DNA of 37,454 bases. Source: Actinomycetota bacterium (GTDB lineage: Bacteria; Actinomycetota; Actinomycetes; Actinomycetales; Microbacteriaceae). The position numbers and the translations under genes are program-made. Below the pieces are notes generated by a model. It was not told where the DNA came from. It made no database searches and worked only from the letters and a program-made list of their open reading frames with translations. Below, piece by piece: positions 5,389 through 13,465 of the stretch (its first letter is position 1; the number at the start of each line of letters is the position of its first letter). Where the stretch lies: positions 45,404 through 82,857 of the forward strand of contig JAFDWK010000050.1 of assembly GCA_018268515.1 (NCBI GenBank), written 5' to 3'.

Positions 5389-6150
5389 ATGCCGCGCCTT
5401 CTCGTCCGTCGTCCGTCGCCCCGTCTCGCCGAGGGCGAGCTGACCCACCTCGACCGCGTGCCGGTGGATCCCGAGCTCGCGCTGCGCCAGTGGGAGCAGT
5501 ACGTCGACGTCTACCGTGCCCGCGGCTGGGACGTGATCGACATCGAGGCGGCCGACGCGCACGCCGACGGGGTCTTCGTCGAAGACGCCGTGGTGATGTT
5601 CGGCGACTTCGCCGTGCTGACCCGCCCCGGCGCGGACTCGCGGCGGGGCGAGATCGACACCGCCCGGGTCACGCTGGAGCGCACGGGCATCCCGTTCGCG
5701 GCGATCGAGGCCCCTGGCACGCTCGACGGCGGCGACGTGCTCAAGGTCGGTCGCACGGTCTACGTCGGCCAGACCCTGCGCACGAGCGCCGAGGGCATCC
5801 GCCAGCTGGACGCGCTGCTCGCCCCGCGCGGCTGGAGGGTCGTGCCCGTCGAGGTCACCAAGGTGCTGCACCTGAAGAGCGGGGTCACCGCGCTCCCGGA
5901 CGGCACCGTGATCGGCTATCCGCCCCTCGTCGACGACCCTTCGATCTACCCCCGGTTCCTCGCGGTGCCCGAGGAGCACGGCACGGCCGTCGTGGTGCTC
6001 GACGAGAACACCGTGCTGATGTCGTCCGATGCCCCGCAGAGCGCGCAGCTGTTCCGCGACCGCGGTCTCACCGTGCTCGAGACGCCGATCAGCGAGTTCG
6101 AGAAGCTCGAGGGCTGCGTGACCTGCCTCTCCGTGCGCGTGCGCGACTGA
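5389..6150 (+). CDS. ddaH: Dimethylargininase (N(G),N(G)-dimethylarginine dimethylaminohydrolase)
   Basis: The 253-residue enzyme belongs to the amidinotransferase/DDAH pentein superfamily and is expected to hydrolyse N-omega-methylated arginines to citrulline plus methylamines in the cytoplasm. Visible motifs are F-V-E-D at 63-66, the R-P-G-A-x-S-R-R substrate-binding block at 79-86, L-D-G-G-D at 112-116, the catalytic His region L-H-L-K-S-G at 160-165 (His161) and the C-terminal G-C-V-T-C-L-S with the likely nucleophile Cys246. Length is typical. The start is set by the family N-terminus (P-R-L-L-V-R-R-P-S) and the leaderless promoter. A related arginine deiminase-like activity on free arginine is less likely given the short length. 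Confidence 0.87.
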   Translation: MPRLLVRRPSPRLAEGELTHLDRVPVDPELALRQWEQYVDVYRARGWDVIDIEAADAHADGVFVEDAVVMFGDFAVLTRPGADSRRGEIDTARVTLERTGIPFAAIEAPGTLDGGDVLKVGRTVYVGQTLRTSAEGIRQLDALLAPRGWRVVPVEVTKVLHLKSGVTALPDGTVIGYPPLVDDPSIYPRFLAVPEEHGTAVVVLDENTVLMSSDAPQSAQLFRDRGLTVLETPISEFEKLEGCVTCLSVRVRD

Positions 6151-6172: not shown

Positions 6173-6538
6173 TCAGCCGGCGAGCGCTGTGCCGAGCGCG
6201 AGCCCGGCGATCGCGGAGAGGATCCCGAGGAGCAGCATCCCCGCGGCGTTGAACACGGCGGCCGGGGAGGATCCGTCCCGCCACAGCGCGACCGTGTCGA
6301 GCATGGCGGTGCTGAACGTGGTGTAGCCGCCGAGCAGCCCCGCACCGACGATGAACGCCGCGCCCGGGAAGCCGCCGGTGATGACTCCGAGCGCGAAGGA
6401 TCCGGTGAGATTGATCACCAGCACACCCCACGGGTACCGGGTGCCGACGAGCCGCGCCACCCCGAGGTCGACGAGATAGCGCAGGCCGGCACCGAGGCCT
6501 CCGGCGAGCGCGGCGGACAGGAACAGCAGCGGGTTCAT
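6173..6538 (-). CDS. crcB: Fluoride efflux channel CrcB/Fluc, second subunit
   Basis: The 121-residue, four-TM protein exports fluoride through a dual-topology channel. The family signatures are G-A-G-L-R-Y-L near residues 15-22, W-G-V-L-V-I-N-L-T-G-S-F near 37-48 and G-G-Y-T-T-F-S-T at 70-77, the last supplying the Phe and Thr/Ser track. The ATG at 6538 overlaps the end of the upstream crcB by 4 nt (ATGA), so the two are translationally coupled. Paired crcB genes in Gram-positives make heterodimeric Fluc channels. The first subunit here carries the partner motif. The stop converges on ddaH with 22 nt between them, containing two direct copies of CCGGTCAGCCGG (6153-6164 and 6169-6180). Confidence 0.92.
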   Translation of the reverse strand: MNPLLFLSAALAGGLGAGLRYLVDLGVARLVGTRYPWGVLVINLTGSFALGVITGGFPGAAFIVGAGLLGGYTTFSTAMLDTVALWRDGSSPAAVFNAAGMLLLGILSAIAGLALGTALAG

Positions 6539-6942
6539 CCGTGCGCCTGCGTGTGCGAGGAGCGCGGCCGGGCGATGTCGAGGCCGAACGCGGCGGCGCC
6601 GATGCCCAGCACGACGCTGCCGATCGCATAGGCCGCGGCGAGCCAGGGCTGCGCATGCCAGAGGGTGACGCTGCCCACGGCGAACGCGCTGTAGGTGGTG
6701 AAGCCGCCGAGCGCGCCCGTGCCGAGGAAGACGCGCGCCGCGCTGGAGGACGGCAGCCGCGCGGCGAGCGCGCCGATGAGGAACGCGCCTGCGATGTTGG
6801 CGATCAGCGTGGCCCACGGGACCGCGCCGAGTCCGTTCCCGTCCGACGCGGGAAGGGCGAGTCCCAGCCCCAGTCGCGCGGCGGTGCCGATCGCCCCGCC
6901 GGCGACGACGAGCGCGAGGCGGAGCGGAACCTGCGACGTCAT
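6535..6942 (-). CDS. crcB: Fluoride efflux channel CrcB/Fluc, first subunit
   Basis: The 135-residue four-TM protein contains G-G-A-I-G-T-A-A-R at 15-23, W-A-T-L-I-A-N-I-A-G-A-F at 43-54 and G-G-F-T-T-Y-S-A-F at 79-87, all diagnostic of Fluc channels. The open frame extends far upstream in GC-rich sequence. The ATG at 6942 is chosen because the family N-terminus begins there and TAGGCT lies 7 nt before it, making the transcript nearly leaderless. It overlaps the second crcB by 4 nt. I looked for a fluoride riboswitch upstream and saw no convincing pseudoknot leader; the near-leaderless promoter leaves no room for one. Confidence 0.9.
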   Translation of the reverse strand: MTSQVPLRLALVVAGGAIGTAARLGLGLALPASDGNGLGAVPWATLIANIAGAFLIGALAARLPSSSAARVFLGTGALGGFTTYSAFAVGSVTLWHAQPWLAAAYAIGSVVLGIGAAAFGLDIARPRSSHTQAHG

Positions 6943-7148
6943 GCCCGCCAGCCTAGACCTGGCGCCCGTGCGTCCGGTCATGGGGCGGCGCGCGGTCGGC
7001 CATCGGACCGCCCCGTGGGAGAACGGAGGAGCCGGAGCCTGGACGCGGCGTGTCGGCCGGGCGCTTGGGTGCGACGCGCCGTGGGTTCCTCCGTTTTCCG
7101 GCGACGAGCTCCAGCCCCGGTCGCCGACACGGGCCCAGCCGGATTCCG

Positions 7149-7154
7149 TAGACT
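7149..7154 (+). promoter_or_regulatory. Candidate -10 element for the membrane protein gene
   Basis: TAGACT in an otherwise GC-rich gap would start transcription near 7161, giving a leader of about 65 nt with GAGGAGG at 7208-7214 ahead of the coding start. An out-of-frame ATG lies at 7162, at leaderless distance, and could be a short overlapping upstream frame. Confidence 0.35.
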
Positions 7155-7225
7155 CGGCCGAATGGCGGGTCCGGCCCGGGGTGCCCGCCGATCGGTTCGC
7201 AGTGACCGAGGAGGACGACGCGCGC

Positions 7226-7921
7226 GTGACCATGAGGAAGGCCTTCGGCTGGTCGCGTCTGCTGACCGCGGCCGTGTGCGCCCTCGCCCTCGTGGACCGG
7301 CTGTTCTGGGGCCTCAGCTCGCAGACCATCGCCGGGCAGAACTACCTCGCGTACCTCACGATCGAGTCGAACATCGCGTTCGCACTCCTCGCCCTGATCG
7401 CCGGCGTGGTCGCGCTGCGCACCGCAGAGGATCCGACCTGGCTCACCACCGCCCGCGCGGTGGTGCTCAGCTGGACGATCACGGCCGGCCTCGCGTTCGG
7501 GCTGATCGTGTGGCAGGCAGGGGTGCGCGGCGTCCCGATCACCGTGCCCTGGTCGGATGTGGTGCTGCACTTCGTGCTGCCCGCCTGGACGATCGTCGCC
7601 TGGATGTTCGGCCCCCGCCGGCGCACGGCGTCCTGGCGGATCGTGCCGTACGTGCTGCTGTACCCGATCCTCTGGGGCGTGTTCACGATCTGGCGCGGCG
7701 GCGTGGTGGGCTGGTATCCGTACTACTTCCTGGATCCGCGTCAGGTGTCCGGACCGCTCGAGCTGATCGGGTCCTCGGCGATCGCGCTGGCGATCTTCGC
7801 GCTGGTCGCGAGCGGCCTGGTCGCGCTGAGCCGGCTGCCCACGATGGCGAGGGCGGATCTGAAGCCCGCGAGGGCTGCGGATCCGGAGGAGCCGGATCCG
7901 CAGGAGCCGGATCCGGTCTGA
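7226..7921 (+). CDS. Multi-pass integral membrane protein, Pr6Pr / FAR-17a-like family
   Basis: The product of about 231 residues has six or seven predicted membrane helices: R-L-L-T-A-A-V-C-A-L-A-L near the N-terminus, then Y-L-A-Y-L-T-I-E-S-N-I-A-F-A, a V-L-S-W-T-I-T-A-G-L segment, D-V-V-L-H-F-V-L-P-A-W-T-I-V-A-W, P-Y-V-L-L-Y-P-I-L-W-G and a final helix. The N-rich T-x-E-S-N and H-x-x-x-P motifs fit the Pr6Pr / androgen-induced-like group of membrane proteins, possibly lipid hydrolases, but no activity can be assigned. Starts at GTG 7181, 7202, 7226 and ATG 7232 are all in frame. I chose 7226 for its spacing of 11 nt from AGGAGG. The C-terminus is a P-D-P-E-E-P-D-P-Q-E-P-D-P tail written with three GGATCC hexamers. 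Confidence 0.7.
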   Translation: MTMRKAFGWSRLLTAAVCALALVDRLFWGLSSQTIAGQNYLAYLTIESNIAFALLALIAGVVALRTAEDPTWLTTARAVVLSWTITAGLAFGLIVWQAGVRGVPITVPWSDVVLHFVLPAWTIVAWMFGPRRRTASWRIVPYVLLYPILWGVFTIWRGGVVGWYPYYFLDPRQVSGPLELIGSSAIALAIFALVASGLVALSRLPTMARADLKPARAADPEEPDPQEPDPV

Positions 7922-7996
7922 CGCTGATCCATCCTGACGTCGCTCCGACTCCGCGGTTCGGACCACCCCTCCACCTCTCCGCTCCTCCGCTCCTCC

Positions 7997-8095
7997 GCTC
8001 CCTGGGCTCCCCCCGCTCCCTGGGCTCCCCCCGCTCCCTGGGCTCCCTCCGCTCCCTCCGCTCCCTCCGCTCCCTCCGCTCCCTCCGCTCCCTGG
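7997..8095. repeat. 9-bp minisatellite, 11 units
   Basis: Eleven tandem 9-bp units built on GCTCCC plus a variable last three bases (TGG, CCC or TCC). Units alternate TGG/CCC at first and then five identical GCTCCCTCC copies occupy 8042-8086. The last unit (8087-8095) forms the first part of the left arm of the palindrome at 8087-8147. It is noncoding, in the gap between convergent genes. Confidence 0.9.
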
Positions 8096-8147
8096 TCGCA
8101 GATTGCGACTTCGAGGCAGCCATACCCGCAATACGCGACCAGGGAGC
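8087..8147. repeat. Long intergenic palindrome 1 (two-block stem)
   Basis: GCTCCCTGGTCGC (8087-8099) pairs perfectly with 8135-8147 (13 bp). A 2x2 internal mismatch follows, then ATTGCG (8102-8107) pairs with CGCAAT (8127-8132), leaving a 19-nt loop. It sits between the convergent ends of the membrane protein and amine oxidase genes and could end transcription from both sides, although no U-tract is present. Its arms are the seeds of the tandem arrays on each side. Confidence 0.85.
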
Positions 8148-8254
8148 AGTCCGGATCCGCGACCAGGGAGCAGTCCGGATCCGCGACCAGGGAGCAGTCC
8201 GGATCCGCGACCGGGGAGCAGTCCGGATCCGCGACCGGGGAGCAGTCCGGATCC
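8135..8254. repeat. 24-bp tandem array, 5 units
   Basis: Five perfect-length 24-bp units start at 8135, 8159, 8183, 8207 and 8231. Each begins GCGACC(A/G)GGGAGCAGTCC and ends GGATCC. Units 1-3 carry A and units 4-5 carry G at position 7. The first 13 bases of units 1-3 equal the right arm of palindrome 1. There are no spacers, so this is not CRISPR. The last unit abuts the end of the amine oxidase gene by 9 nt. Confidence 0.93.
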
Positions 8255-8263
8255 GATCCGGTG

Positions 8264-9649
8264 TCAGGGTGTCGGCGTCGCCGCGACGAAGAACCGCAGC
8301 GACTCGCGGACGGCGGCCTGCGCGTCGCCGTCTCCGAGGCGTGCGAACGCCTCCGCGGCCGGCCCGCCGACGAGACCGACGAGCACGGGCTTGCCGGTGA
8401 CCGGCTGCAGGTTCAGCCAGGTGCGCACGACCGCCTCCCCGCCGATGACGTGCCACAGGTCGGCGTCGGCCTTCCAGAACGCGTCGTCGAACTGCACCCA
8501 CACGGTCTCCACGAATCCGGAGGCGAGTGCGGCGATCGCGCCGCGGTGACCGAACGGCAGCGGCGGCGCGAACTCGATCGCCTGATGCTGCAGGACTCCG
8601 AGCGGGACCGTCACGACCACCCGGTCGAACGACAGCGACTCCCCCGTGCCCAGGCGCAGGCTCACCCCGGAGTCGTCGTGGGCGATGCGCGTCACCGGAG
8701 AGGCGAACGTGACCTTGATGTCTTTGAGCGGGGTGTCGACGAGCACTCCGACATCGCCGTCAGCGCCCACGAGCGCGTCGGGGAGGATGGCCGGCGGATA
8801 CCAGCTCGACGCCTTCGCCGCGTCGGCGCCCGTGGTCGCCTGCAGCCAGGCAAGCGCGGCTTCGAGCGCGGGGTCGGCAGGGTTCGCCCCCGCCGCCTTG
8901 AGCGCATCGATCACCGACACATCGGACGCCGCGTTCGCCGCCTGCTGCACGGCGTTGCGCAGGGGCCCTTCGTCGATCGTGGGCACGGCGCCGTGGTCGG
9001 ACCAGCCGGTCGGCGCATCGAACCCGAGCCGATGGATGCCCTGCGCGGCGAGCAGGGCGCCCAGGGTTCCCGCGCCCTCCCCGGCCGAGAGCCACGCTCC
9101 CAGCTGCACAGGCATCGGCCACTTCTTGTCGTCGACCGAGCGGATCCGCCCGCCGGTGCGCTCGCGCGCCTCGAACACGGTCACGGTGCGCCCGGCATCG
9201 GCGAGGGCGCGTGCGGCCGCGGCTCCGGCCGCGCCCGCGCCGACCACGGCGATGCGCTCACCGCTCGACGAGGCGGCGATGATCGCGGCCGCGGCCCGTT
9301 GTCCGGAGCCGATCGCACCGGGAACGGTGCCCGGGCGATCCGGATCCGTCGTCTCGCCGGCGAAGAACAGCCGGTCGCCGATCGGCACGGCGAGGTCCTT
9401 GCGCAGCTGCGGCGTCGCCCCCGCCGGCAGATAGCTCATCGCACCGCGGGCGTACGGATCCGTCGACCAGGTGCTGCGCATCCAGGCGGAGGGCTCCGGG
9501 GCCGCGCCGGGCGTGACGATCGGTGTCGGCGAGGGCGGCCCCGAGGTGGGGCTCTTCGTCGGCTGCGGCTCGGGCGTGCAGGCCGCGAGCACGACCGCGA
9601 CGGCGCCCGCCCCGGCGCCGACGAGCAGGGTTCGCCGCGAGATGCCCAT
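8264..9649 (-). CDS. Flavin-dependent amine oxidase, secreted lipoprotein, circularly permuted FAD-binding segments
   Basis: This 461-residue protein belongs to the flavin monoamine oxidase group and should oxidise an amine outside the membrane. The N-terminus S-R-R-T-L-L-V-G-A-G followed by L-A-A-C (Cys24) combines a Tat-like twin arginine with a lipobox. A P/T-rich linker runs to about residue 55. Residues 61-120 then contain the segment that normally closes the family C-terminus (D-P-Y-A-R-G-A-M-S-Y-L-P at 64-75, L-F-F-A-G-E-T at 94-100, P-G-T-V-P-G-A-I-x-S-G at 106-116). Only afterwards comes the Rossmann FAD motif G-A-G-A-A-G at 137-142 and R-T-G-G-R-I at 164-169. The V-P-L-G-V-L block is at 348-353. 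The chain ends where the canonical protein would enter the W-x-x-D-P segment. The start ATG at 9649 lies 9 nt after TAGGCT, so the mRNA is nearly leaderless. Confidence 0.88.
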   Translation of the reverse strand: MGISRRTLLVGAGAGAVAVVLAACTPEPQPTKSPTSGPPSPTPIVTPGAAPEPSAWMRSTWSTDPYARGAMSYLPAGATPQLRKDLAVPIGDRLFFAGETTDPDRPGTVPGAIGSGQRAAAAIIAASSSGERIAVVGAGAAGAAAARALADAGRTVTVFEARERTGGRIRSVDDKKWPMPVQLGAWLSAGEGAGTLGALLAAQGIHRLGFDAPTGWSDHGAVPTIDEGPLRNAVQQAANAASDVSVIDALKAAGANPADPALEAALAWLQATTGADAAKASSWYPPAILPDALVGADGDVGVLVDTPLKDIKVTFASPVTRIAHDDSGVSLRLGTGESLSFDRVVVTVPLGVLQHQAIEFAPPLPFGHRGAIAALASGFVETVWVQFDDAFWKADADLWHVIGGEAVVRTWLNLQPVTGKPVLVGLVGGPAAEAFARLGDGDAQAAVRESLRFFVAATPTP

Positions 9650-9845
9650 CGTGCTGTCAGCCTATCCTCGCGTCGCGAGGGTGTCGGGACGGGCCGCGTC
9701 GCCGTGGCCGAACCGTTCTCGGGATGGATTCGCGCCCGTCGCGGCGTGCACGTCGACACGGTCGTGCGGCCGTCTCCGTCCTGAGAACGGTCGACTCGTG
9801 CGCGGATCCTGTCGGCGCCAGCCGGCTCCGGACGACCGTTCGGGA

Positions 9846-9916: not shown

Positions 9917-10879
9917 CTACAGGTTGCCCTCGGCGTAGATCCGCAGGGCGTCACGCACGAACTCCGCCCCTGCGGTGCCGGCGGTTCCCGACGCCGCCTC
10001 GGCGGCCCGGTCCGATGCGGTGGCGTAATTCGCGCCGAAGCGCGGATCCGCCACGTACATCTCGCCGAGACCGACGACGTAACCCCTGCGGTCTCCGCGC
10101 TCGTCATAGGCGGGCGTACCGGGGATGCCGGTGAGCCAGCCCACGTGCCGCCGTGCGATCTCCTGCGCTTCGGATGAGGCCGGATCCGCACCCGCCTCGG
10201 CAAGCGCGATCCACGATGCGTTGAGGTCGGCGACGAAGGCCTTCCACGACTCCTGGCCCTCCGTGCCGAGCCCGCGCCACCAGCGGTCGCCGTCGGCGTA
10301 GGCCTTCTTCCCCCAGCGGCTCTCGACCTCCTCCTGGTACCGGGTGTGGTCGAAGCCGTCGAACATGTTCTCGGGCATGAGTGATCCTCCTTCTCTGAGT
10401 GTGGTGATGGTGTTCTCGACCGACGCGATCTGCCGCGCCAGCCGGGTCTGCTCCGCGCGCAGCAGCGCGAGGTGCTTCTCGAGGGCTGCCGCCTCGATCG
10501 CGGCGGTCGCGGCGGCCGATCCGGCCCTCACGGATCCCGGCGATCCGGATCCGGTGGATCCCGGCGATCCGGATCCCGGCGATCCGGATCCCGGCGATCC
10601 GGATCCGGCGGATCCGGCGGATCCGGTGCCGTCCCGCCTTCCGGTCGGATCCGGATCCGCGGCGACGACCTCGGCGATCGCCGGCAGCCCGAGTCCGAGC
10701 CCGCGCAGCAGCAGGATGCGCTGCAGGCGCAGGAGCGCGCCCTCGTCGTAGTGGCGGTACCCGTTCGAGGAGATCCGCGTGGGCGGCAGCAGTCCGATGT
10801 CGTCGTAGTGCCGCAGGGTGCGGCTCGTGGTGCCGGCCAGCCGCGCGATCTCCTGGATCGACCAGTCCCGATGCTCCAT
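9917..10879 (-). CDS. MerR-family transcriptional activator with TipAS ligand-binding domain
   Basis: The 320-residue protein has a MerR winged-helix DNA-binding domain at residues 6-75 (W-S-I-Q-E-I-A-R-L-A-G, T-L-R-H-Y-D-D-I-G-L, G-Y-R-H-Y), a coiled-coil dimerisation helix near 125-165 and a TipAS domain at 170-320 (F-D-G-F-D-H-T-R-Y-Q-E-E-V-E-S-R-W-G). TipA-type proteins sense small molecules such as thiopeptide antibiotics and activate promoters with a 19-bp spacer. Exactly such a promoter lies upstream of its own gene. ATG 10879 has AGGAGG 7 nt upstream. Unusually, a G-S-P repeat linker of about 35 residues (85-121), written by a run of GGATCC-containing repeats, is inserted between the HTH and the coiled coil. 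The longer in-frame extension upstream to 11353 is GC-rich read-through. Confidence 0.88.
   Translation of the reverse strand: MEHRDWSIQEIARLAGTTSRTLRHYDDIGLLPPTRISSNGYRHYDEGALLRLQRILLLRGLGLGLPAIAEVVAADPDPTGRRDGTGSAGSAGSGSPGSGSPGSGSPGSTGSGSPGSVRAGSAAATAAIEAAALEKHLALLRAEQTRLARQIASVENTITTLREGGSLMPENMFDGFDHTRYQEEVESRWGKKAYADGDRWWRGLGTEGQESWKAFVADLNASWIALAEAGADPASSEAQEIARRHVGWLTGIPGTPAYDERGDRRGYVVGLGEMYVADPRFGANYATASDRAAEAASGTAGTAGAEFVRDALRIYAEGNL
10531..10652. repeat. GGATCC-rich tandem repeat inside the MerR gene
   Basis: About ten GGATCC hexamers occur within roughly 120 bp, built from a degenerate 15-bp unit GGATCCCGGCGATCC. In the MerR reading frame this gives the S-G-S-P-G linker at residues 85-121. 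Repeat length is a multiple of three, so copy-number changes keep the frame. Confidence 0.85.
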
Positions 10880-10908
10880 GGGATCCTCCTTCCGTCGTCG
10901 ATGAGACC

Positions 10909-10939
10909 ACGGTAGAAGTTGACGCTGCGTCAAGGTCAA
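10909..10939 (-). promoter_or_regulatory. MerR-type promoter and operator with 19-bp spacer
   Basis: On the minus strand the -35 TTGACC (10939-10934) and the -10 TACCGT (10914-10909) are separated by exactly 19 bp (10915-10933). The spacer contains the palindrome TTGACGCtGCGTCAA at 10919-10933 (plus-strand reading). This is the hallmark of promoters untwisted by MerR-family activators, and it directs transcription of the merR gene itself. The operator also lies about 50 bp upstream of the divergent glycogen phosphorylase start. Confidence 0.9.
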
Positions 10940-10972
10940 GAGATCTCCGGAAGACGGGGCGGAACTCTGCGG

Positions 10973-10978
10973 TACGTT
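10973..10978 (+). promoter_or_regulatory. -10 element of glycogen phosphorylase, leaderless arrangement
   Basis: TACGTT ends 7 nt before the GTG at 10985. There is no ribosome-binding site, and the family N-terminus begins just after this codon, which fits a leaderless mRNA. Confidence 0.5.
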
Positions 10979-10984
10979 CGTCGC

Positions 10985-13465
10985 GTGACCTCCTCCGATG
11001 CCACCGCCCCGCACTCGCCCGCCCTCGCACTCGACCTGCCGCCGAGCGTGGACGGCTTCACCGCGCAGTTCCTGCGCAACCTGAACCTCTCCGGCGGCGT
11101 CGCTCTGGCCGAGGCCAGCACGAACGATCGCTACCTCGCCCTCGCCCGCACCGTGCGCGACTTCCTCATGGTGCCGTGGCTCGCCGATCAGCACCGGCAG
11201 GCCGAGGCCGCGGCGAAGACGGTCTGCTACCTGTCCGCGGAGTACCTGCTCGGCCGCCAGCTCGACAGCGATCTGCTGGCCGGGGACCTCGCCGGGATCG
11301 CGGCCGAGGCGATGACCGCCTGCGGGGTCGACCTCGACGAGCTGCGCGGCCACGAGATCGAGCCCGGGCTGGGCAACGGCGGGCTGGGGCGCCTGGCCGC
11401 GTGCTTCATCGACTCGCTCGCGACGCTCGGCGTGCCCAGCATCGGCTACGGGATCCGGTACGAGTACGGCATCTTCCGGCAGACGTTCGAGGATGGCCAG
11501 CAGGTCGAGCAGCCCGACGCATGGCTCACGCTCGGCGCCCCCTGGGAGCGCTCCCGCCCCGAGGCGGCGCAGACGGTGTCGTTCGGCGGACGCACCGAGA
11601 CGTACGACCAGGACGGCGCCGTCCGCTCACGCTGGATCCCGGGGTGGGACGTGAGCGCCGTGCCCTATGACTACCTCGTGCCCGGCTACCGCAACGGGCG
11701 GGTGAACACCCTGCGGCTCTGGCGCGCGAAGGCCACCGACGCCTTCGATCTGCGCATCTTCAACGCCGGCGACTACGAGCAGGCCGTGCGCGCGCAGACC
11801 TTCGCGGAGAACATCTCCAAGGTGCTCTACCCGGAGGACTCCACGCCGCAGGGCAAGGAGCTGCGCCTGCAGCAGCAGTACTTCTTCGTGGCCGCGTCGA
11901 TCCGCGATCTCCTGGACCGGCTGCCGGAAGGGTTCGACCTCGCCCGCCTGCCCGAGCGGGTGATCTTCCAGCTCAACGACACCCATCCGGTGATCGCCGT
12001 GCCGGAGCTCATGCGGGTGCTCGTCGACGAGCGCGGCATGGCGTGGGATGCGGCCTGGGCCGTCACGCAGCAATGCTTCGCCTACACCTGCCACACGCTG
12101 CTGCCGGAGGCGCTCGAGGTGTGGCCGGTGGAGCTGCTCGGCAGCCTGCTGCCCCGGCACCTCGAGATCGTCTACCGGATCAACGAGGAGTTCCTCACCG
12201 CCGTGCGCGCCCGCTTCGGCGACGACGAACTGCGGATCCGCGACATGTCGATCATCGCCGAATTCCCGGTGCGCGCCGTGCGGATGGCCTACCTCGCGAC
12301 GGTCGCAGGCGCGAAGGTCAACGGCGTCGCCGAGCTGCATTCGCAGCTGCTGCGCGACAAGGTGCTGCCCGCGTTCGCGGAGTTCTTCCCGGAGAAGTTC
12401 ACCAATGTCACCAACGGCGTCACCCCGCGCCGGTTCCTGCGGCTCGCAAACCCCGGCCTCTCCTCGCTCATCACGGAGGCGGTCGGCGACGGCTGGCTCA
12501 CGGATCTGGAACGGCTGCGCGGGCTCGAGCCGCTCGCCGAGGACGCGGCGTTCCGCGCGTCCTTCGCCGCGGTGAAGGACGCGAACAAGCAGCGCCTCAA
12601 CGCGGTGCTGCAGGCGCGAGACGGGATGCGGGTCGGCGACGGCCACCTCGTCGACGTGATGGTCAAGCGCCTGCACGAGTACAAGCGGCAGTTGCTCAAG
12701 GTGCTGCATGTGGTGAGCGAGTACGAGGGCGTCATGTCGGGCCGGATCCCGCTCGAGGAGCTGCAGCCGCGCACGGTCCTGTTCGGCGCGAAGGCGGCGC
12801 CCGGCTACGCGATGGCGAAGCGGATCATCCACCTGATCAACGCGGTCGGATCCGTCGTGAACACGGATCCGCGCCTCGATGGGCGCCTGCAGGTGCTGTT
12901 CCCGCCGAACTACAACGTCACCCTCGCGGAGAGCGTGATCCCGGCGGCGGATCTCAGCGAGCAGATCTCGCTGGCGGGCAAGGAGGCGTCGGGAACGGGC
13001 AACATGAAGTTCGCGCTGAACGGCGCCCTCACGATCGGCACCGACGACGGCGCGAACGTGGAGATCCGCGAGCTCGTCGGCGACGAGAACTTCTTCCTGT
13101 TCGGGATGACGGAGCCCGAGGTCGCCGAACTCGCCCAGGCCGGGTACCACCCCGCCGCCTACTACCAGGCCGACCCCGGGCTGCGCCGCGCGATCGACCT
13201 CATCGCCTCCGGGACGTTCTCCGGCGGCGACCGCTCGGTGTTCGAGCCCGTCGTGTCGAACCTGCTCTACGAGGACCGCTTCATGGTGCTCGCCGACTAC
13301 GCGGCCTACATGGCGGCGCAGCGGCGCGTCGACGCGGCCTACGCCGACCGGGACGGCTGGACCCGCGCCGCGATCCTCAACGTCGCCCGCTGCGGCTTCT
13401 TCTCCTCCGACCGCTCGATCCGCGACTACCTCGACCGGATCTGGCACGCCGCGCCCACGCACTGA
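10985..13465 (+). CDS. glgP: Glycogen/starch/alpha-glucan phosphorylase (GT35)
   Basis: The 826-residue enzyme releases glucose 1-phosphate from alpha-1,4-glucans in the cytoplasm using pyridoxal phosphate. Conserved blocks are Y-L-S-A-E-Y-L-L-G-R near residue 80, G-L-G-N-G-G-L-G-R-L-A-A-C-F-I-D-S near 128-145, Q-L-N-D-T-H-P near 325, N-V-T-N-G-V-T-P-R-R-F near 475, V-K-R-L-H-E-Y-K-R-Q near 560 and E-A-S-G-T-G-N-M-K-F-A-L-N-G-A. The PLP-binding Lys of that last block is encoded at 13007-13009. Length is normal (about 800-850). The GTG at 10985 is preferred over the upstream in-frame ATG because of the leaderless -10. It is divergent from the TipA-like MerR gene, with no sign of other glycogen genes nearby. 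Confidence 0.95.
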   Translation: MTSSDATAPHSPALALDLPPSVDGFTAQFLRNLNLSGGVALAEASTNDRYLALARTVRDFLMVPWLADQHRQAEAAAKTVCYLSAEYLLGRQLDSDLLAGDLAGIAAEAMTACGVDLDELRGHEIEPGLGNGGLGRLAACFIDSLATLGVPSIGYGIRYEYGIFRQTFEDGQQVEQPDAWLTLGAPWERSRPEAAQTVSFGGRTETYDQDGAVRSRWIPGWDVSAVPYDYLVPGYRNGRVNTLRLWRAKATDAFDLRIFNAGDYEQAVRAQTFAENISKVLYPEDSTPQGKELRLQQQYFFVAASIRDLLDRLPEGFDLARLPERVIFQLNDTHPVIAVPELMRVLVDERGMAWDAAWAVTQQCFAYTCHTLLPEALEVWPVELLGSLLPRHLEIVYRINEEFLTAVRARFGDDELRIRDMSIIAEFPVRAVRMAYLATVAGAKVNGVAELHSQLLRDKVLPAFAEFFPEKFTNVTNGVTPRRFLRLANPGLSSLITEAVGDGWLTDLERLRGLEPLAEDAAFRASFAAVKDANKQRLNAVLQARDGMRVGDGHLVDVMVKRLHEYKRQLLKVLHVVSEYEGVMSGRIPLEELQPRTVLFGAKAAPGYAMAKRIIHLINAVGSVVNTDPRLDGRLQVLFPPNYNVTLAESVIPAADLSEQISLAGKEASGTGNMKFALNGALTIGTDDGANVEIRELVGDENFFLFGMTEPEVAELAQAGYHPAAYYQADPGLRRAIDLIASGTFSGGDRSVFEPVVSNLLYEDRFMVLADYAAYMAAQRRVDAAYADRDGWTRAAILNVARCGFFSSDRSIRDYLDRIWHAAPTH

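Follow-up and report, generated by a model that had tools for sequence, protein, structure and literature searches.

A probable natural circular permutation of the flavin amine oxidase fold in putative exported lipoproteins of Microbacteriaceae

Flavin amine oxidases are among the best studied flavin families. According to PMC3184146, in passages citing earlier work, the K661A substitution in LSD1 abolishes activity, the K300M substitution of the equivalent lysine in maize polyamine oxidase (PAO) slows flavin reduction 1400-fold, and LSD1 Tyr761 belongs to the aromatic cage. The subject of this report is a gene at 8264..9649 on the minus strand (ATG at 9649) of a 37,454-nucleotide stretch of DNA, called here the window, from a Microbacteriaceae bacterium (GenBank GCA_018268515.1, contig JAFDWK010000050.1, positions 45,404 to 82,857). 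The open reading frame (ORF) encodes a 461-residue protein, P0002, assigned by Pfam, phmmer and profile alignment. The best sequence and structure matches of this protein were the amine oxidase domains (PF01593) of LSD2/KDM1B and LSD1/KDM1A, with which it has the fold and the flavin adenine dinucleotide (FAD) motifs in common, but its segments stand in a different order and the catalytic lysine and cage tyrosine are replaced. The other domains of LSD1 and LSD2 gave no match in the window protein, no separate search having been made for them. Maize PAO also differs from the window protein in having the canonical order and its native lysine, K300. Computation established the permuted order, its breadth, and the conservation of the FAD motifs, the export signal and a neighbouring gene. 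We consider it highly probable, from these sequence data, that the gene is functional and that its product is a natural circular permutant of the flavin amine oxidase (LSD/PAO/MAO) fold.

PF01593 matched the window protein in three stretches (E 3.1e-49; 168.9 bits against a gathering score of 19.8). The original prediction had proposed a circularly permuted flavin amine oxidase carrying a Tat lipoprotein signal, and the motifs it quoted were found at the residues it gave: D64-P-Y-A-R-G69, LFFAGE at 94-99, PGTVPGAIGSG at 106-116 and GAGAAG at 137-142. Residues 54-127 (9269..9490, minus strand) correspond to the C-terminal segment of canonical enzymes and contain WSTDPYARGAMSY, the LFFAGE stretch with the AGE motif A97-G98-E99, PGTVPGAIGSG, and the closing helix of the FAD domain (109-126); WSTDPYARGAMSYLP lies in this same segment. 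It is followed by the Rossmann FAD-binding segment, residues 130-190 (9080..9262, minus strand), in which the GxGxxG glycines G137, G139 and G142, the downstream glutamate E160 and the RxGGR motif (RTGGR, R164-R168) are all present. The substrate-domain and second FAD-domain segment, residues 191-455 (8285..9079, minus strand), runs to the cut site at the chain end.

Both phmmer and profile alignment placed the tail segment ahead of the Rossmann segment. With the window protein as query, LSD2 (4gu0) was the best single-sequence match among solved structures: residues 50-125 aligned with LSD2 700-775, the last residues of that chain (independent E-value, i-E, 4.1e-07), residues 129-178 with LSD2 335-382, and residues 302-442 with LSD2 535-682. 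A profile built from 20 permuted proteins (alignment A2) gave two complementary blocks, 112-440 on LSD2 333-694 (i-E 2.1e-66) and 34-109 on LSD2 698-773 (i-E 7.9e-18). The split at LSD2 694/698 bears out the claim that the protein ends where the canonical chain enters the moved segment, and no part of the fold appears to be missing from the permuted chain since the gap between the blocks is only three residues. Among the best 60 of the 271 PDB sequences matched by the permuted profile, none had its best stretch spanning the junction. Two AlphaFold models of permuted proteins (predicted template modelling scores, pTM, 0.80 and 0.88) matched LSD1 and LSD2 up to the cut site; the aligners used were sequential, and the match covers the chain to that point with the moved segment outside the comparison. 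Alignment and model indicate that the natural ends are joined by about six residues, which would link the last helix (109-126) to Rossmann strand 1 (132-136); the new chain ends would fall within the loop that connects the helix finishing near residue 455 with the strand preceding W61. The same parts are expected to make up the FAD site, the moved segment presumably packing as in canonical enzymes and FAD presumably being retained. A canonical-order paralogue in the same genome (G000:C37:31610-33040), a member of the same family found by the same search, has its tail at the C terminus, as given by the positions of its three matches, unlike the window protein.

A frameshift, pseudogene or assembly artefact, with the canonical C-terminal segment lying elsewhere, would also give an apparent permutation. 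We found no support for this in the window or in relatives: no frame of the window held a second significant tail match, and the three frames 3' of the stop contained repeats and the antisense of the next gene, with no tail. Near full-length matches having the same order were present in 15 of 58 relative genomes, namely the genome of the window and 14 of the 34 others searched in its genus (14 of these 15 proteins make up alignment A1, L003 being left out despite its having the same order), and further families also contained the order. In Microbacteriaceae as a whole it was seen in at least 134 of 398 genomes in 31 genera, a lower bound given that at most four candidates were scored per genome (matches extending across both the tail and the Rossmann segment, judged by eye). 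Together with the invariance of the FAD motifs, these independent genomes refute an artefact, which we regard as having a negligible chance of being correct. The permutation of the chain is supported both by the two complementary LSD2 blocks and by the order in independent genomes.

The permuted order is not restricted to Microbacteriaceae. A sample of named genomes (at least 595 stretches, 455 of them encoding relatives) yielded 80 loci kept by likeness to a permuted query, and hence not a measure of prevalence, of which 20 were permuted, 57 canonical and 3 undecidable in order. By record titles, 15 of the 20 permuted loci lay outside Microbacteriaceae. These included actinomycetotes (two Acidimicrobiaceae, Microthrix and one unplaced actinomycetote), Nitratireductor, Sphingomonadaceae, two Hyphomicrobiales, Devosiaceae, Rhodobacteraceae (a fragment), an Opitutaceae verrucomicrobium, a gammaproteobacterial and an alphaproteobacterial metagenome-assembled genome (MAG), and Pseudomonas citronellolis. 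One MAG (locus L054) is labelled Bifidobacterium breve; its permuted protein groups with that of the unplaced actinomycetote and the label is probably wrong. In broader samples, permuted proteins turned up in at least 8 of 296 Actinomycetota genomes (E limit 1e-40; five candidates scored per genome), the window's genome and three others from Microbacteriaceae being among the 8, and in at least 2 of 240 genomes of the class to which the Nitratireductor genome belongs, that genome counting as one of the 2 (E limit 1e-50; seven candidates); both counts are lower bounds. In the genus of P. citronellolis 15 of 25 genomes had one, itself included (E limit 1e-60). A plasmid search with the Pseudomonas permuted protein returned 8 records, none having a place that covered 80% of the query, and PHROGs gave four weak matches to the Rossmann part. 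The literature searched on permutation and flavin oxidases, covered at the level of listings and abstracts and including few subscription journals, contained no account of a naturally occurring permuted amine oxidase. The family of this fold is known, and no paper searched was found to describe the permuted order. A natural permutation of a large two-domain flavoenzyme in several phyla would test the separability of chain order and fold.

Did the permutation arise once? Trees were built after the permuted chains were rotated to the canonical order. Order changed 3 times, versus 28.7 for shuffled labels, on a 103-row tree (34 of 62 permuted rows and all 69 canonical rows then in hand), and 3 changes were also needed on a 61-row tree of chosen rows (25 permuted and 36 canonical) from which most long branches were left out. 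None of 200 bootstrap trees of the 61-row set had one order change, which counts against a single origin. Several origins, which these free trees favour, are nevertheless a minority possibility in our judgement: forcing a single permuted clade on the 61-row set cost only 2.63 log-likelihood units and was not rejected (approximately unbiased, AU, test p 0.42), and the cut site is similar across groups. The three groups differed little in the distance around it, with medians of 17, 17.5 and 18 residues. A different history, in which one oxidase lost its tail and then gained the tail of another at its N terminus with no permutation of one chain, would account for the lack of the expected duplication intermediate: none of the 189 ORFs holding both segments (re-fetched copies included) had a tail at both ends, and so the duplication path was not seen. 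We consider this history improbable, however: canonical and permuted groups have similar spacing around the cut, the two pieces complement each other without overlapping and leave a gap of three residues, and on trees made from rotated full chains the permuted rows group together.

Active-site positions were compared in 50 Microbacteriaceae permuted rows, 28 other permuted rows and 83 canonical-order rows, leaving out known re-fetched copies and the fragment L050 (named/unnamed duplicates of genomes may remain). The lysine and tyrosine columns, which were assigned through the phmmer alignment to LSD2, where LSD2 itself has Lys and Tyr, are those that we take to be K661 and Y761 of LSD1. The flavin-bridging lysine, which holds a water molecule at flavin N5, was present in 81 of 83 canonical and 27 of 28 other permuted rows, versus 2 of 50 Microbacteriaceae permuted rows; threonine stood there in 39 of the 50, as in the window protein (T382; codon 8504..8506, minus strand). 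The aromatic-cage tyrosine, kept in 79 of 83 canonical and 26 of 28 other permuted rows, remained in only 1 of 50 Microbacteriaceae rows and is M71 in the window protein (codon 9437..9439, minus strand). Because nearly all permuted rows outside Microbacteriaceae keep the catalytic residues, the permutation and the active-site change are separate. Residues G98, G137, G139, G142, E160 and R168 were invariant across all three groups. The Microbacteriaceae branch is a natural loss of the chemistry-bearing lysine and tyrosine with the FAD motifs kept. Two Microbacteriaceae permuted proteins, from loci L136 and L139, keep lysine at position 382 and have serine and leucine at the tyrosine position; they are possible witnesses to the order of the two losses.

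Given the replacement of both residues, the Microbacteriaceae proteins most likely no longer oxidise amines in the usual way. The name flavin amine oxidase thus stands as a statement of fold family (PF01593) and is doubtful as a statement of activity in this branch (T382, M71). A still working exported amine oxidase would fit the strong PF01593 match and the retained FAD residues, but with lysine in 2 and tyrosine in 1 of 50 rows, when both are kept almost throughout the canonical and the other permuted rows, we think it unlikely. Loss of both hallmark catalytic residues with retention of the FAD motifs and the export signal would also fit a catalytically dead FAD-binding lipoprotein having a structural or sensing role. 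This we hold to be somewhat more plausible than a working amine oxidase, yet doubtful: three tryptophans are near-invariant in the Microbacteriaceae rows (W384 in 47, W399 in 48 and W283 in 48 of 50) and suggest a selected pocket, which they may line.

The Tat (twin-arginine translocation) lipoprotein signal occupies residues 1-24 (9578..9649, minus strand; ISRRTLL ... LAAC), and C24 is the cysteine expected to be lipidated. It is followed by a Pro/Thr/Ser-rich linker, residues 25-53 (9491..9577, minus strand; alignment and model), most of which was modelled with low confidence. Both the twin arginines (R5-R6) and the lipobox (LAAC) are supported by sequence: R5, R6, L21, A22 and C24 were invariant in the 14 rows of A1, and a Tat-plus-lipobox text pattern fitted all 50 Microbacteriaceae permuted rows. 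One common pattern found a Tat-like signal in 15 of 28 other permuted rows (5 with a lipobox; absent in 13) and in 26 of 83 canonical-order rows (9 with a lipobox), and variants of the pattern gave 16 of 28 (the first pattern) and 13 of 83 (a stricter one); all these counts are of text patterns in the region 5' of the fold, which may take in bases before the true start. The Pseudomonas permuted proteins appear to begin near the cut site. The suggestion that permutation was favoured by the room it made for an added signal is therefore not supported: such a signal is missing from 13 of 28 other permuted rows and present in 26 of 83 rows of canonical order. From these counts the permutation neither requires export nor is required for it. 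In Microbacteriaceae the folded holoprotein is probably exported by the Tat system and then probably held at the membrane's outer surface through a lipid attached to C24.

Directly downstream of the permuted gene lies a convergent gene for a Pr6Pr-family membrane protein (6695..7921, plus strand; its NF038065 domain, at about 7343-7834, scored 95.4 bits where the cut-off is 30), the true start of which is probably near 7230, judging from the lengths of its orthologues. A Pr6Pr gene stood tail-to-tail with the permuted gene in 49 of 50 Microbacteriaceae permuted loci, and in 44 of these 49 pairs the frames ended less than 100 bases apart or overlapped by less than 100 bases. The gap is near zero or negative in most other loci; that of the window, 349 bases, is the largest and has tandem repeats inside it. 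These G+C-rich repeats (7878-8255; a 24-bp unit in 5.1 copies and a 9-bp unit in 13.2) occur at the end of the Pr6Pr frame as well as in the gap. Neither the loci of 83 canonical ORFs nor those of 31 other permuted ORFs, which represent 29 distinct genes and in many cases extend 1.5 kb or less downstream, gave any match to a profile of the neighbour. On the upstream side, the commonest immediate family accounted for 5 of the 25 loci with called genes.

The Microbacteriaceae permuted protein may well bind FAD and do other redox work at the membrane with a Pr6Pr partner, a reading of its chemistry to which we give about an even chance. If this is true, Microbacteriaceae would hold a new envelope redox system composed of a permuted flavoprotein and a tail-to-tail Pr6Pr membrane protein. 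The permuted gene also draws attention to a family of possible membrane partners for which we found no function. The whole history, a single bacterial permutation that spread across phyla and then gave rise in Microbacteriaceae to a Tat-exported, lipid-anchored redox system with Pr6Pr that is not an amine oxidase, is put forward tentatively. Several observations weigh on the other side. Locus L033 has no Pr6Pr neighbour within its 1,818 bases downstream. Some Pr6Pr gene is present in 44 of 58 relatives, including genomes lacking the permuted gene, and since these include members of the genus the pairing is linkage and not proven partnership. The placement of residues 54-127 by the FAD site rests on pTM, the predicted local distance difference test (pLDDT) and shared motifs. 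In the window protein PF10518 (Tat signal) scored below its cut-off (14.8 versus 22.7), and amine oxidation by another mechanism, supported by T382 or W384, is conceivable.

The name Pr6Pr was not found in the literature searched. A possible likeness to AIG1/ADTRP hydrolases received no support from Pfam. A Pfam scan of the Pr6Pr alignment gave scattered single-member matches of no use for function, and the matches from a PDB scan were to lectin chains, spanned 63 profile positions (best E 3e-05) and were taken to be unrelated.

Upstream of the permuted gene a -10-like TAnnnT, read by eye, is present at 9659..9664 (minus strand), ending 9 bases 5' of the ATG. In 19 upstream regions compared by eye (window 9649-9664 on the minus strand, L002, L004-L015, L031-L034 and L046) such a sequence ended 8-9 bases before the ATG in 18, the exception being L034, and no Shine-Dalgarno sequence was evident. 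Given these two features the gene is possibly leaderless.

Other genes of the window include a dimethylargininase at 5389-6150 (plus strand; NF045660, 408 bits versus 340) and two adjacent CrcB fluoride-channel genes at 6173-7329 (minus strand), overlapping as called and both matched by PF02537. A MerR/TipAS regulator at 9917-11353 (minus strand) has a Gly/Ser/Pro-rich repeat that separates its TipAS domain from the DNA-binding domain and is encoded by tandem repeats at 10517-10626.
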